Source: Tubulinosema ratisbonensis (lineage: Eukaryota > Microsporidia > Tubulinosematidae). From it: 12,152 bases of DNA. Positions 1 to 9,042 of the stretch are shown here, one piece after another. The stretch is taken from NCBI GenBank assembly GCA_004000155.1, contig RCSS01000286.1:1-12152 (forward strand), read 5' to 3'. How positions within the stretch are numbered: the stretch's first letter is position 1; the number at the start of each line of letters is the position of its first letter. Under the pieces are notes generated by a model. It was not told the origin of the DNA, ran no database searches, and saw only the letters and a list, made by a program, of their open reading frames with translations. A program made the translations under genes and the position numbers.

Positions 1-1550
1 CCACACACATTATAAACCTCTTCAACACATTCACTCAAACACTTTTCTAAATTATTTTCACATTCTCCTTCTAAATGAATTCTAATAACATCTTCTGTTC
101 CTGATGGTCTAACAAACCCTGTACAATCATATTTCTTTAAAATACCTTCCAAACTTACTTTTATACTTTTATCTTTTACCTTTAAAGCTAAATCTTTTAT
201 TGGATTAGGAATAAAATCTTCTTTTTCTAAATTTATCATTGATTCTATGACCAAATAATTTGACACTGCGTCACCTAAACTTAAAAGATTAATCAAGGCT
301 TTTTGGTGCTCAGTGCATTTTTCATAAACCTCTTCTTTGTAATGTAAAGCACCATGTCCATTTGGCTCAAAGAATAATCCAATATCAAATTGTTTTACTT
401 TTTTNATAAAGTTTTTTACTCCTGTCTCTGCTATTTCTACTTGCATAAACTGACTTAAAAATTTTATAGCTTTGCTGTTGGAGTAAATACTAAGCACACA
501 GCCTAATTTTACATTTGTAAAAATGTCTTTGAGTAATAATCCTAATTTTATGCATAATTTGTCACCATCTAAAAAAGTAAACTTTTTTCCTTTTTTAAAG
601 TAAATAATTCTATCTGCATCACCGTCAAAGGCTGCTTGCCAACTGTCTGGAATGTAATATAAAGGATTTTTACTGTTAATAATATAATCTGAGCCACACT
701 GATAGTTTAACAGGTCTCCAGTTAAGATTTTTATGTTAAGCTTGAGATCATTAAGAATCTTAGTACCAACTCCATAAGCAGTGTCTATGGGATGTAATGA
801 AAAATTGTTTATTTCTACATTAACATTTTCTTTCCTAGGTGGTGACATTTTTTCTACTTTTTTTAATGGTTCATTTTTAAAAGGATAGGTTTCTTCATTT
901 ATGCAATGAGTACAACAAAATGTTCTGTCTTCTTTAATTTCATTGGTTGATTTAAAATGTATTTTTGATTTGTTTTTCGTCAAAATTTGTAAATTATTCA
1001 ATAAAAAGGAAATGTACTCAAAATGTAAAACCACTTTGCCAGCCTTGTTAGTTTGTTTAGTCAAAAAATGAAGTTCTTGGGTAGATACAATGTGATGGTA
1101 GAAATAAGAAATACCTAGATGGTTTAGTAAGTCTATCACTGCGTGTGCCAGCTCAGGTGAAGAAGGCCTAGTGTCTCTTCCCAAAAGTATTTTAGAGTTT
1201 TTATCCAATTTTTCTGATATTTTTGATNTATTTATTTTACATATTTTTGCTAAATATTCTTCAAACATTTCCTTTAAGTTTATGCAATTTACAANCTCAT
1301 CACAAATTTTCTCATATTCTGTAGGAATAGATTCTCCGTTGTGGTCTATTAATTTTATACCATTATCATTTACAGGGTTATGAGAAGCAGTGATCATTAT
1401 TCCAATAGATTTATCTGTCTCTATCATCCTAATAATTGCTACCAATACTGTTCTTCTTATGGCATTTTTTAAGTCTAATCCGAAAGTATCTCTATAACCA
1501 GAGGTACCATAATGCATCTCTTTAGATGGTTTTACTATCCTTTCTAGCAT
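1..1550 (-). CDS. AGM1: Phosphoacetylglucosamine mutase, 3' end cut by window edge
   Basis: This enzyme interconverts GlcNAc-6-phosphate and GlcNAc-1-phosphate in the cytosolic UDP-GlcNAc pathway that feeds chitin and glycan synthesis. Reading the minus strand from the ATG at 1550 gives 516 open codons before the window ends. All phosphohexomutase signatures are visible: the N-terminal HYGTSGYR (residues 13-20), the phosphoserine loop ITASHNP with catalytic Ser56, GRDTRPS (124-130), the metal-binding DGDADR (309-314), the sugar-binding loop FEPNGHG (394-400) and the phosphate-binding loop FVRPSGTED (479-487). AGM1 rather than a phosphoglucomutase is indicated by TASHNP followed by NDNGIKL and by the eukaryotic-style C-terminus. 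Family members are about 540 residues, so only a short tail is missing. Single N bases at 405, 1228 and 1294 leave three residues undefined. No intron is seen. It is divergent from the paralogue starting at 1965. Confidence 0.95.
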   Translation of the reverse strand, partial: MLERIVKPSKEMHYGTSGYRDTFGLDLKNAIRRTVLVAIIRMIETDKSIGIMITASHNPVNDNGIKLIDHNGESIPTEYEKICDEXVNCINLKEMFEEYLAKICKINXSKISEKLDKNSKILLGRDTRPSSPELAHAVIDLLNHLGISYFYHHIVSTQELHFLTKQTNKAGKVVLHFEYISFLLNNLQILTKNKSKIHFKSTNEIKEDRTFCCTHCINEETYPFKNEPLKKVEKMSPPRKENVNVEINNFSLHPIDTAYGVGTKILNDLKLNIKILTGDLLNYQCGSDYIINSKNPLYYIPDSWQAAFDGDADRIIYFKKGKKFTFLDGDKLCIKLGLLLKDIFTNVKLGCVLSIYSNSKAIKFLSQFMQVEIAETGVKNFXKKVKQFDIGLFFEPNGHGALHYKEEVYEKCTEHQKALINLLSLGDAVSNYLVIESMINLEKEDFIPNPIKDLALKVKDKSIKVSLEGILKKYDCTGFVRPSGTEDVIRIHLEGECENNLEKCLSECVEEVYNVC

Positions 1551-1964
1551 AAAATAAAGTATTTTTTTTATTTATTTGTTTAAATCAAGTGACGTTTCAT
1601 AATTATTGCATTTATTTAATTTGTTTATTTTAATTTGGTTGGTAAAATACATATTTAATTTTGAAGGAATGTTTTTTTAGAAAATGTGTTTATTTTAAAT
1701 AATTTGTTTGTAAAAAATAGATTTATAACCCAAATATTTTCAATTTACTAAACATTTAAAGTATTTTGCATAATTTTAACATTTTATGATTTTATTAATT
1801 TAATCTTTTTTTATTTATAAAATATGTAAAGAAAAATAATTATTTTAATTTTTTATTGTTTTATTTAAAAATAGGATTAAATTAATTAAAAATTATATTT
1901 TTTTATTTTTAAATAAGAAAATAAGTATTTTTATTTTTTAATTTAGTAAAAATACCCCTCATTC
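1551..1964. promoter_or_regulatory. Shared divergent intergenic promoter region
   Basis: This 414-base gap separates the two start codons of the head-to-head AGM1 and AGM1-like genes, so the promoters of both must lie here or inside the genes. It is almost pure A+T, with long T and A runs, and I see no GC-rich operator. Many TATA-like strings occur, but the base composition makes them uninformative. The bases directly before the AGM1 ATG (TACTTTATTTT) resemble those before the ARF-like gene at 6416 (TACTTATTTT), which might be a start-proximal element. The other side carries a CCCC motif (1955-1958). Confidence 0.5.
1955..1958 (+). promoter_or_regulatory. CCC-type start-proximal motif
   Basis: A CCCC run sits six bases before the ATG at 1965, in the context TACCCCTCATTC. 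It stands out because the preceding several hundred bases are almost only A and T. CCC- or GGG-like motifs directly upstream of start codons are a described feature of microsporidian genes, so the motif supports this start and the lineage guess. The other three genes here lack it. Confidence 0.45.
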
Positions 1965-3203
1965 ATGAATTCAAAAAAGATTTTACCTAATTTACTAAGA
2001 AGGTTTTACCAAGACTTAAAAATACCATCAGAGACTGGTGAAATATTCAGATTAGCACTACTATCACATATAAGATCTTCTACCTTTGCAGCAAAATTTA
2101 TAGGATTGTATGTAACACCAAAACCTGTGATTATTGATCACACAGGTGAACAATTAGATGATACTTGGCAGAAATACCAAACAGAATTACTTATTACCAC
2201 AGAAGATTCATTACACATCACTTTAAATAGGATACACAGAAAAGTAGGTCAAATGAAAGATTTTGGGGATGGTCTTCCTTCCAGGATATTAATTTACACT
2301 CATCCCGTGTATAAAACAAAGCTACAAGAATTATTTGATATGCTAGAAAGTGAAATATTTTTCTATGATGAAGTTTTCTTTGCTCAGTTCTGTTTCTTTG
2401 TAAAACATTCCAATTTGAATGACAGTGTTTTAAATTACAAAAATTATTTACTTTATTTGACAAATTTAATTACTTTTTTAAGCAAAGATAATTTGGTAAA
2501 ACATTCACCAATCAAAACAAAAAGTAAGATAATTAATAAAATGATAGAAGAATTAAACCTTGATTTTAAGAATGATGATGTTTTATTTTGTGAATTAAGT
2601 GATGATGGGTTAAAATATTTTAAAAAAGGAAATTTAGTGGATACAAATAGTTTACTTGCTAAATTAGCCACTGAATTCTATAGAAGAGGAAAGAGTGTAG
2701 CAGTATTTTTGCCACCATGTGCTAACATTACATCTATAAAGTATTTAGAAACTGTTGCTAAAATTATCTCTAAGGAAGACGTGTCTTTGAAGGATTATAA
2801 AGATAATTTTGAAGTGGTTCTTTCTATAAACCAAAATAATTTGGTAAGTTTGGTTTCCAATCTTAAAGATTATGAGATACTTTGTACTTACGGCGATCCT
2901 TTAGTTTCTTACTTTATTTTTGATTATTTGGTTGACTTTTTTTCTGTTTTGTTTGAGGAATTACCTAATAGGTTTATAGAAATATCTATCAAAAATAAAG
3001 TAGAATGTGTTAAGTTTAACAAAGTAGATGAGTTATTAAGAAATAACAAATGTACAGGAAAGATTCAATCAGTGGATAAAAAGATTAAGATATTTGTGGA
3101 GGGAAGAAATCAAAGACAGGTGGATGAATGTGCAGTTGATATTGCACAATATCTTTATGATAATTGTGAAGGGGTAGGATATCATCCTGAGATAAATTAT
3201 TAG
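1965..3203 (+). CDS. AGM1-fold pseudoenzyme (catalytically dead paralogue)
   Basis: The 412-residue protein has a complete frame from ATG to TAG. By eye it aligns colinearly with the neighbouring AGM1. Residues 45-62, FIGLYVTPKPVIIDHTGE, match AGM1 SIGIMITASHNP...LIDHNGE, with about eight residues including the catalytic serine loop removed. ILIYTHP (108-114) takes the place of ILLGRDTRP. Around 209-222, CELSDDGLKYFKKG replaces AFDGDADRIIYFKKG. ANITSIKYLE (253-262) matches SNSKAIKFLS. The C-terminal CTGKIQSVDKKIKIFVEG (from 363) replaces CTGFVRPSGTEDVIRIHLEG. The fold landmarks persist, but the Ser, metal-binding Asp, sugar-loop and phosphate-loop residues do not. It is about 100 residues shorter than AGM1, mostly in the segment before the metal loop. 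It has no signal peptide or membrane helix. Mutase activity is very unlikely. An AGM1-binding regulatory role is inference. Confidence 0.8.
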   Translation: MNSKKILPNLLRRFYQDLKIPSETGEIFRLALLSHIRSSTFAAKFIGLYVTPKPVIIDHTGEQLDDTWQKYQTELLITTEDSLHITLNRIHRKVGQMKDFGDGLPSRILIYTHPVYKTKLQELFDMLESEIFFYDEVFFAQFCFFVKHSNLNDSVLNYKNYLLYLTNLITFLSKDNLVKHSPIKTKSKIINKMIEELNLDFKNDDVLFCELSDDGLKYFKKGNLVDTNSLLAKLATEFYRRGKSVAVFLPPCANITSIKYLETVAKIISKEDVSLKDYKDNFEVVLSINQNNLVSLVSNLKDYEILCTYGDPLVSYFIFDYLVDFFSVLFEELPNRFIEISIKNKVECVKFNKVDELLRNNKCTGKIQSVDKKIKIFVEGRNQRQVDECAVDIAQYLYDNCEGVGYHPEINY

Positions 3204-3845: not shown

Positions 3846-3866
3846 AAATCAATACTTCCTGTAACC

Positions 3867-4068
3867 AAAGCCTGCAGGGGAGGTTAGACTTAGGCAGTCA
3901 ATAGAGTGCACAGGGCTTTCACCTGCTAAAACCTACCACTTTTTTTTTGTTGCCTGGGGATGGGAAATCCATACAGAGATCTTTTCGCTATACCTTCTTT
4001 ATGAGAGTACTAAAACCTACCACGTGACCCCTATTTGCTACCTAAGTCTAACCTATCTTGCAGGCTTT
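3867..4068. repeat. Imperfect 38-bp inverted repeat enclosing repeat copy B
   Basis: The arm at 3867-3904 begins AAAGCCTGCA and contains AGGTTAGACTTAGG. The arm at 4031-4068 is its reverse complement, with 32 of 38 positions identical. Inside, the 14-mer CTAAAACCTACCAC occurs twice in direct orientation, at 3926-3939 and 4010-4023, bracketing dispersed repeat copy B. A third, diverged copy of the arm lies at 8819-8853 beside repeat copy D, in the orientation of the right arm relative to the element. This looks like element-associated sequence, possibly LTR or leader, that was partly duplicated in inverted orientation. It is not like any RNA gene I recognise. Confidence 0.75.
3940..4012 (-). 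repeat. Dispersed repeat copy B (possible LTR fragment)
   Basis: On the plus strand it reads T-run, GTTGCCTGGGGATGGGAAA, TCCATACAGAGATC, TTTTCGCTATACCTTCTTTA, AGTACT. The reverse complement matches copies C and D closely, including the core TATAGCGAAAAGATC and the tail GGCAACAAAAAA. It sits between the arms of the inverted repeat at 3867-4068. Confidence 0.85.
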
Positions 4069-4289
4069 AAGTACAGTAAAAAAATATTTTATAATATAGT
4101 TGTTGTGGTAACCAAATTAGATTATAAATTCAGGTATTTGATGAAATAATTGATTTGAATATTATTTAGGTGTTTTTAATAATTAGAAATGATAAAACTG
4201 CCCCTTTTATAAACAAAGTTCTAATTTATTATCCCCTAAAAATCATAAATAAAAATTTACCTAAAATAATTTCAAGTTTAAATTTTTAA

Positions 4290-6415: not shown

Positions 6416-6904
6416 ATGGGTACAATTTGTTCTTCTTGCACAACTAAAGAAACTTATAACATTGCACTAGTAAGCACAGACGAAGAAAAAAGAGCAACAG
6501 TTTACAAATACATGACCAAAGGTCACTTACCTCTTACAAAATATCAAGAAATTAGACTAACAAACTATAAACATAATTACAACCTAACAACACTAAATAC
6601 TGATGATTTGACCATGGATGTTTGGGAAGCTTACTTGAAATTTTCAAAAGCAACTTTTTTTGTGTGTGACTTAAACAAATCAGCTGACTTTGTGGTAGAA
6701 AAAGTTTTTGAAGAGTATGTATCTAATTTTATTAAAAATAATTATATTATTGTGGTGATGTGTTATTCTGATAACCCTGTTACTATATTTGATAATTATT
6801 CAGAACTAAATTCTTTTAAGCTTGTGTGTATTAAAACAGAGGATGATGAAATGAAGAAGTTAAAAGAAGCTTTTGCATGGATGGAAAAAAATATTAAAAA
6901 ATGA
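6416..6904 (+). CDS. ARF-family-like protein lacking GTP-binding motifs
   Basis: The protein is 162 residues, close to ARF length (about 180). The N-terminus MGTICSSC fits an N-myristoylation signal (Gly2, Ser6) with cysteines at 5 and 8 that could be palmitoylated, so it is probably membrane-attached. The body follows the ARF pattern: strand and P-loop region NIALVSTDEEKRATVYKYM (15-33) against the family's ILMVGLDAAGKTT; WEAYLKFSKATFFVCDLN (70-87) against the ARF stretch after switch 2; IIVVMCYSDN (111-120) at the NKxD position; C138 near the SAK-like motif; and the final helix LKEAFAWMEKNIKK (149-162). The P-loop GxxxxGK[ST] has become STDEEKRAT, WDxGGQ has become LNTDDL, and NKxD is lost. 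Nucleotide binding is therefore unlikely. The role is unknown; a trafficking adaptor or effector decoy is inference. Confidence 0.65.
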   Translation: MGTICSSCTTKETYNIALVSTDEEKRATVYKYMTKGHLPLTKYQEIRLTNYKHNYNLTTLNTDDLTMDVWEAYLKFSKATFFVCDLNKSADFVVEKVFEEYVSNFIKNNYIIVVMCYSDNPVTIFDNYSELNSFKLVCIKTEDDEMKKLKEAFAWMEKNIKK

Positions 6905-6930
6905 ATTAATTAANNNNTCTATTTAAAACT

Positions 6931-7147
6931 TAAATTTTGATAAAAAACATGTCATAATCTAAAATTTTACTTAAAAGTAATGTTAAAGTTTGATAAAAAA
7001 CATGTCATAATGTAAAACTTTGATAAAAAAACATGTCATGATGTAAAATTTTAGTAAAAATGTAATGTTAAATTTTGATAAAAAACGTGTCATAAATTAA
7101 AACTTTGTCAAAATGTGATGTTAAATTTTGAAAAAAAAATATCTTAA
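6931..7147. repeat. Minisatellite with two interleaved unit types
   Basis: There are eight consecutive units. Long units of 27-31 bases carry TTTGATAAAAAACATGTCAT (from about 6935, 6988, 7018 and 7073, with a decayed last one at 7122). Short units of about 24-25 bases, of the type TAAAATTTTACTTAAAAGTA, start near 6960, 7044 and 7098. The order is long, short, long, long, short, long, short, long. The array fills the gap between the 3' ends of two convergent genes, so both transcripts could run into it. Four N bases at 6914-6917, just before it, suggest assembly trouble. Confidence 0.85.
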
Positions 7148-7171: not shown

Positions 7172-7555
7172 TTAATTAAATTCTCCTTTTTTAAAAATAC
7201 CTTTACTTTCCCAAACTCTTTTAAGCTCAACAAACTTTTTATTCAACTCCTCAAAACAAACACTGTCAGCCAAATCATTCTTAAATTTTTTTGTAACAAA
7301 CCTATAAAAAGAGAAAAAGATATCAGATTGGTATCTCTTTTCATTCTGTAAGATTTCATTACAGATATAATAAAGAAGTAGTTTATGGAATATGTTAGAC
7401 CGATTGTAAACAAATTCAAAGCATTCTATTATCTCTTTCTCGTATGTTTTGTTTGATAAGATNTACAATGACAGTGTTTGCATGTCTCTTTGGGTAAGTG
7501 ACAGTGATTTTAGTGAGTAAAGGAGGTATTCTTTTGAGACTGTTTTTATTGGCAT
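7172..7555 (-). CDS. CTD-interacting domain (CID) protein, Rtt103/RPRD1-like
   Basis: The 127-residue protein is essentially one CID, the all-helical fold that binds the phosphorylated C-terminal tail of RNA polymerase II and couples transcription to 3'-end processing and termination. Residues 17-33, SLSLTQRDMQTLSLxIL, match the helix 1-2 signature of RPRD1/Rtt103 (S-Q-x-x-[IV]-Q-T-L-S). KLLLYYICNEILQNEKR (58-74) matches the family's K-L-x-x-L-Y-L-x-N-[DE]-[IV]-[IL]-Q-N-S-K-R core. RVWESKGIF (113-121) matches the closing helix R-x-x-x-[IV]-W-x-x-R-x-[VI]-[YF]. Fungal and animal homologues have further coiled-coil sequence after the CID; here almost nothing follows. An in-frame stop 21 bases upstream supports the ATG at 7555. 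One N (7463) makes residue 31 undefined. It converges with the ARF-like gene. Confidence 0.8.
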   Translation of the reverse strand: MPIKTVSKEYLLYSLKSLSLTQRDMQTLSLXILSNKTYEKEIIECFEFVYNRSNIFHKLLLYYICNEILQNEKRYQSDIFFSFYRFVTKKFKNDLADSVCFEELNKKFVELKRVWESKGIFKKGEFN

Positions 7556-7880: not shown

Positions 7881-8008
7881 ATTCATGTTTATTAGAAGGT
7901 CATAAAATGTAAAAGCTAGGTACTAATATCTTATACAGAAGATATAGCGAAAAGATCTTCGTATGTATTTATATCCATGGCAACAAAAAAATTATGACAT
8001 GTAAAATA
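7881..8008 (+). repeat. Dispersed repeat copy C (possible 3' LTR fragment)
   Basis: The core reads GGTACT...TATAGCGAAAAGATCTTCG, TATGTATTTATATCCATGG, CAACAAAAAA. Similarity to copy D extends past the core into ATTATGACATGTAAAAT (D: ATTAATCACATTTAAAAT), and on the other side to ATGTTTATTA. It is in direct orientation with copy D, and the reverse transcriptase relic lies between them. Confidence 0.85.
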
Positions 8009-8931: not shown

Positions 8932-9042
8932 CATATGTTTCTATTAATCAGGTACTTATATTCTTTATATTTAAGGTATAGCGAAAAGATCTTCTTATGG
9001 ATTTCGTATCCTAGGCAACAAAAAATTAATCACATTTAAAAT
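8932..9042 (+). repeat. Dispersed repeat copy D (possible 5' LTR fragment)
   Basis: The core reads GGTACTTATATTCTTTATA, AAGGTATAGCGAAAAGATC, TTCTTATGGATTTCG, TATCCTAGGCAACAAAAAAT. It matches copies B and C over the whole core. It lies upstream of the reverse transcriptase relic in that relic's own direction, where a 5' LTR or leader would be. Confidence 0.85.

Follow-up and report, generated by a model that had tools for sequence, protein, structure and literature searches.

The window analysed here, an entire contig of 12,152 bp from an assembly of 4.12 Mb, carries two genes of the AGM1 type in head-to-head orientation, and profile comparisons with relatives show one of them to encode what is, judging by its sequence, a pseudoenzyme derived from a native microsporidian AGM1. 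The gene for this catalytically dead paralogue, pseudo-AGM1 (P0001; positions 1965..3203, plus strand), runs from ATG to stop over 412 codons with zero internal stops, which confirms the full-length frame described in the first-pass annotation. Among 300 random sequences generated at window length by an order-2 Markov model of the pseudo-AGM1 coding sequence, the longest open run in the three plus frames reached 156 residues (mean 90), so a frame of 412 residues is not a chance occurrence. The codon usage of pseudo-AGM1 correlates with that of the adjacent AGM1 (r 0.92), the third-position GC content is 21.5% as compared to 22.1%, and the ORF is a real gene. Its start codon is preceded at a distance of 7–10 bases by CCCC (1955..1958, plus strand), which resembles the microsporidian CCC-like start-proximal signal; according to PMC2803860, this signal precedes most Encephalitozoon cuniculi genes as well as ribosomal-protein genes in other microsporidia. 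The signal is not universal in this assembly, since CCC is present at two of the eight gene starts inspected (four in the window and four elsewhere, with 60 and 30 upstream bases, respectively), namely those of pseudo-AGM1 and chitin synthase.

The adjacent AGM1 (3..1550, minus strand) retains all six active-site motifs and has orthologues in P0004 (76%) and P0005 (65%). Its 3′ end is cut by the end of the contig, where P0004 suggests approximately seven further residues, and the gene contains three ambiguous bases (405, 1228 and 1295). The two genes are separated by a 414-bp intergenic stretch of 12.6% GC (1551..1964). Searches of the 4.1-Mb assembly with either protein recovered only its own locus, PF02878 at E ≤ 10 likewise matched the AGM1 locus only, and there was one match each for a UDPGP-family pyrophosphorylase and a chitin synthase.

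The AGM1 homology of pseudo-AGM1 becomes clear through its relatives and not through Pfam or a direct BLASTP comparison with the neighbor. Pfam gave no PGM_PMM match at E ≤ 10 but only three unrelated families, all below their cut-offs, NCBIfam gave no relevant match over cut-off, and a sequence search of the PDB with pseudo-AGM1 or with a two-row profile of it and its orthologue P0002 returned chance-level matches only. The best BLASTP stretch against the adjacent AGM1 was likewise weak, with 21% identity over 98 residues (E 2e-6). In contrast, phmmer connected pseudo-AGM1 to the AGM1 P0003 with an E-value of 1.7e-14, the two-row profile reached the AGM1 P0015 at 3e-33 (database of 5.8 billion, 7622 candidates scored), and an hhalign comparison against 23 AGM1s gave Prob 100 and E 1.7e-46 over 389 columns, which bears out the earlier proposal of an AGM1-derived paralogue. 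Of 121 AGM1s compared locally with the profile, 120 received a score (lowest 7.5, median 25.9 bits) and 118 reached E < 1e-3, compared to a maximum of 4.1 bits among 242 reversed or shuffled AGM1s. The highest scores against the pseudo profile belong to the AGM1s P0006–P0008, and the similarity to ordinary microsporidian AGM1s (E 1.7e-46) is much stronger than that to the adjacent AGM1 (4.4e-7); pseudo-AGM1 does share descent with the AGM1 of the same genome, the activity of which we infer from its motifs, but the comparisons do not support the neighbor as its closest relative.

Pseudo-AGM1 very probably also retains the AGM1 fold. An AGM1-seeded model has the four-domain α-D-phosphohexomutase architecture of the AGM1 type, and a fold search with this model returned AGM1 as the top match, in agreement with the phosphohexomutase fold suggested previously. 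The structure predicted from the two pseudo rows alone was uninformative (pLDDT 43), and the fold assignment thus leans on the AGM1-seeded model together with the sequence profiles. Some of the individual fold landmarks listed in the first-pass annotation are weak; the CTG match is probably due to chance, as the CTG of the adjacent AGM1 is CLG in P0004 and CNG in P0005.

The active-site elements, in turn, are lost, as the first-pass annotation had noted. The phosphoserine loop TASHN, the metal loop DGDxDR, the sugar loop ExNGHG and the phosphate loop RPSGTE (with R[PQA]S[GD]TE allowed) are each found in 121 of 121 AGM1 matches, GTAGYR in 119 and GRDTR in 117 of them, although the set is biased towards motif-bearing proteins because it derives mostly from a single search with a motif-bearing query. 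All six motifs are present in the adjacent AGM1 and absent from both P0001 and P0002. In the alignment, P0001 lacks eight residues at the serine loop and five at GRDTR, and its metal loop is shorter by three residues and its phosphate loop by two. No counterpart of the GTAGYR stretch remains, and the sugar loop is replaced rather than deleted. Over the full protein, 106 columns are 90% conserved in AGM1s, and of these the two pseudo copies have lost 78 and 76. Pseudo-AGM1 therefore resembles AGM1/PCM1/PGM3 in its whole-length descent and predicted four-domain fold but differs in the absence of the six motifs and in being shorter, with 412–415 residues in the pseudo copies as opposed to 514–620 (median 528) in 55 other AGM1s. 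Given the lost loops and the known mechanism, in which Ser69 of the A. fumigatus AGM1 is the catalytic serine and its alanine mutant is inactive (PMC6096347, in the part available), pseudo-AGM1 should neither catalyze the reaction nor bind substrate in the AGM1 manner.

This bears directly on the suggestion, made in the first-pass annotation, that the protein might be a sugar-phosphate sensor; such a protein would bind GlcNAc-phosphate without turnover. The predicted fold would permit it, and substrate binding is described (PMC7761743) for PGM5 (aciculin), which like pseudo-AGM1 is an inactive paralogue within the α-D-phosphohexomutase superfamily with a suggested structural role. However, PGM5 is close to PGM1 and keeps its active-site loops along with substrate binding (PMC7761743), whereas pseudo-AGM1 derives from AGM1, lies outside the PGM1 subfamily, and has no intact metal, sugar or phosphate loop, each being either deleted or replaced in P0001 as well as in P0002. 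The very protein that lends the idea a precedent thus takes support away from it, and with every ligand-binding loop gone a sensor role seems very improbable. The remaining function of pseudo-AGM1 would then most likely lie in protein contacts.

That some function does remain is suggested by the orthologue P0002, a protein of 415 residues with conserved start and end that is 61% identical over 100% of pseudo-AGM1 (253 of 412 residues, with three single-column gaps). The dead state is conserved in this one other source with the same losses, which speaks for a protein that is both constrained and catalytically dead, as had been proposed, and against a decay of the loops confined to this genome. 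Full-length identity at this level also speaks against a dN/dS near 1. Identical runs of eight or more residues span positions 35–45, 87–106, 310–319, 331–340, 378–391, 393–401 and 403–412, and several of them fall on AGM1 blocks, chiefly those of P0006–P0008. The stronger blocks common to pseudo-AGM1 and AGM1 are HIRSSTFAAKF, LNRIHRKVGQMKDFGDGLPS and the C-terminal YLYDNCEGVGYHPEINY. The first of these (codons 35–45; 2067..2099, plus strand) is the AGM1 domain-1 helix motif, which is kept in the pseudo copy and lost in the adjacent AGM1. The second (codons 87–106; 2223..2282, plus strand) is the longest run, with 20 of 20 residues identical in P0002, and is shared with the AGM1 P0008. Finally, the domain-4 helix and the AGM1 C-terminal tail (YDNCEGVGYHPEINY; codons 378–412; 3096..3200, plus strand) are identical in P0002 at 33 of 35 positions, whereas neither P0004 nor P0005, which are both complete orthologues of the adjacent AGM1, has the tail. 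In a quick tree, P0001 and P0002 are separated by 0.67 changes per column, compared to 0.29 and 0.47 between the adjacent AGM1 and P0004 and P0005, respectively; provided that P0002 and either P0004 or P0005 belong to one species, the rate of change in the dead copy would be only approximately 1.4 to 2.3 times that in the enzyme. Judged by this conservation pattern, the body of the pseudo-AGM1 sequence is under purifying selection.

Two further readings can be weighed against the same data. The pseudo clade has the longest stem in quick trees, with 2.7–2.9 changes per column compared to 1.7–2.0 for the active clade, as might be expected of a functionless leftover drifting towards loss. Such a paralogue would hardly combine an intact 412-codon frame, conserved ends and 61% full-length identity including invariant blocks with a CCC-like start signal and an AGM1-like codon usage, and this explanation appears highly improbable. 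Scarcely more can be said for recruitment of the fold to new, unrelated catalysis at another active site: several charged residues outside the old site are conserved, for example in EGRNQRQVDE, but the loops of the old cleft are gone and a number of the longest conserved stretches lie at AGM1 positions.

The adjacent AGM1 has itself been reshaped, and both copies form long branches. It has lost 22 of the 106 conserved columns, and its orthologues 21 and 25, against a median of one and a maximum of 28 among 49 comparison AGM1s, a set that is mostly microsporidian and in which the four non-microsporidian members have the largest losses (18, 21, 21 and 28). The IRSSTFAGK motif in domain 1 is lost in all three active orthologues and kept in the pseudo copies, and the GxGxxPEIxY tail is missing from the ends of P0004 and P0005, the adjacent AGM1 itself being cut at the contig end. 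In addition, the active clade has a private insert with an FCCTxCINE motif at the junction of domains I and II (residues 198–247; 810..959, minus strand), which is present in P0004 and P0005 and comprises about 50 residues, whereas in 55 other AGM1s the insertion at this position never exceeds 20. The cysteine-rich insert could be a metal-binding or docking arm.

With respect to the order of duplication, the quick trees bring long branches together, and AU tests accepted all four groupings considered (pseudo with active, pseudo with P0006–P0008, active with P0006–P0008, and all eight together; p 0.62–0.72). Horizontal gain of either copy is not supported, since five domain pieces taken from P0004 and P0002 score best against microsporidian AGM1s when compared to 45 relatives treated as microsporidian and 10 non-microsporidian ones. 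Among the 45 top-ranked relatives, 11 carry species names, all of microsporidian genera, and the other 34 were treated as such by rank and tree position; this AGM1 affinity assigns the assembly to the microsporidia, whereas a search of it with the SSU rRNA family RF02542 gave no match. At 37 diagnostic columns the active copies show 8, 8 and 9 animal-type states and the pseudo copies 6 and 4, compared to at most three in each of nine rows inspected among the 45 other AGM1s.

Taken together, our leading, if tentative, guess from sequence and analogy is that pseudo-AGM1 serves as a non-catalytic partner or activator of the divergent AGM1 beside it. This reading is put first because the only AGM1 found adjoins pseudo-AGM1 head-to-head and is itself altered. 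Also in its favor are the helix and tail that are kept in the pseudo copy and missing in the active clade, the private insert of the latter, the unusual column losses of the active copy, the constraint seen in P0002, and the loss of motifs in both pseudo orthologues. We infer for the pair an interaction, regulation and co-expression, in which pseudo-AGM1 would act as a protein-binding subunit that stabilizes or switches the strongly diverged enzyme and thereby might set the UDP-GlcNAc supply for chitin. Contact would probably be made through three conserved parts of pseudo-AGM1 that are lost or altered in the active copy, namely the helix of domain 1, the KVGQMKDFGDGLP loop and the C-terminal tail. 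Precedents exist in the trypanosome AdoMetDC/prozyme and DHS pairs, as described in the available parts of PMC5201418 and PMC3663545.

Several observations count against the partner reading. Within the pair, the CCC signal is found on the pseudo gene only, which does not favor co-expression, and the column losses of the active copy are measured against a mostly microsporidian reference set in which the four outsiders lose as many. Statistics on reciprocal loss between the two copies are also weak or null. Column counts gave Fisher p-values of 0.17, 0.39 and 1.0 at thresholds of 70, 80 and 90%, and counting similar residues as kept reversed the odds ratio (1.53, 1.42 and 1.05; p 0.12, 0.24 and 1.0). 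Windowed correlations were weakly negative (r −0.19, −0.20 and −0.13 at windows of 9, 15 and 25), with equally low values in 2.3, 4.2 and 16.0% of circular shifts, and comparably negative values occur in other AGM1 pairs, namely −0.16 to −0.38 for P0008 and the active copy and −0.17 to −0.28 for P0117 and the pseudo copy. Reciprocity is accordingly a property of two blocks and not an established pattern of the whole proteins. In addition, the A. fumigatus AGM1 is reported to be a monomer in solution by gel filtration (PMC3763426), which argues against a simple swap of one subunit of a homodimer.

The main rival, which is a realistic possibility though still a doubtful one, is a moonlighting scaffold or adaptor unrelated to AGM1 activity, in which the emptied phosphohexomutase body is re-used as in PGM5. 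That protein is an inactive superfamily member with protein partners, as far as the available text of PMC7761743 describes it, and a scaffold would fit the monomeric state of the A. fumigatus enzyme (PMC3763426) and the loss of all ligand loops, ligand handling being dispensable for such a role; the conserved patches of pseudo-AGM1 would suit any partner. It would then be a coincidence, however, that the gene lies head-to-head with the sole AGM1 found and that the active copy has accelerated in parallel. A stronger version of the partner reading, which we consider unlikely, is that chitin-precursor synthesis in one microsporidian lineage now requires the products of both genes for its mutase step. 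A stripped AGM1 with a new CC..C docking insert would then be supplied in trans with the missing domain-1 helix and C-terminal tail surfaces by the dead AGM1. If true, a prozyme system would have arisen from an enzyme which in other fungi is monomeric.

The same contig possibly holds a second dead paralogue, a candidate pseudo-GTPase by sequence similarity. A 162-residue ORF starting with MGTICSS (6416–6904, plus strand) has as its sole non-self match in the assembly (E 0.1) an ORF at locus L004 that resembles an Arf-type GTPase and is one of nine Arf-family matches in the assembly; the two are 24% identical over 98 residues (BLASTP E 6e-6, single comparison), and the GTP-binding P-loop is missing by eye. 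Pfam gave no match for this ORF and an Arf family search did not recover it, and its match in the PDB, a designed propeller (E 2.4e-8), was regarded as spurious. Between this ORF and a gene for a 127-residue protein with a CID domain (7172–7555, minus strand; Pfam E 6.4e-16) lie four imperfect, partly overlapping copies of an AT-rich direct repeat with a 71-nt reference (6930–7138). A 241-bp element with imperfect inverted arms (3850–4090; 56 nt, 77%) looks like a MITE-type repeat. Pieces that match it number at least 83 in the assembly, a count based on scores for 40 of 193 candidates; the commonest is about 80 bp long, and related pieces lie near 7929–8007 and 8965–9042.

Dead phosphohexomutases such as PGM5 and activating dead paralogues such as prozymes are already known kinds. 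The trypanosomatid AdoMetDC prozyme and DHSp likewise combine a parasite enzyme, itself altered, with a conserved dead paralogue, but they concern other enzymes and another pathway, and their complexes are proven (PMC5201418 and PMC3663545, available parts), whereas a complex of pseudo-AGM1 with AGM1 is a proposal. Pseudonucleases derived from fungal Dis3 are similarly dead enzymes kept for a non-catalytic role (PMC8097288, available part), although the enzyme and process are unrelated to AGM1. Among the titles and opening abstract lines that searches of the open-access literature returned, none concerns a dead AGM1 or such a pair in microsporidia, and a word search of the available text of PMC10759460 found no mention of inactive, pseudoenzyme, paralog, mutase or chitin. 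A loop-stripped AGM1 adjoining a reshaped active AGM1 appears to be a new form of these kinds.

Microsporidia have shed much of their metabolism, so one would not expect them to conserve a dead version of an enzyme that is essential to the chitin pathway. Pseudo-AGM1 is a concrete example of a pseudoenzyme that a small parasite genome has kept, and the fact that Pfam and NCBIfam miss it suggests that similar dead paralogues may hide among uncharacterized microsporidian proteins. If the pair does form a heteromer, it would extend prozyme-like control beyond the trypanosomatids and would represent a parasite-specific contact in a pathway that is also present in the host.
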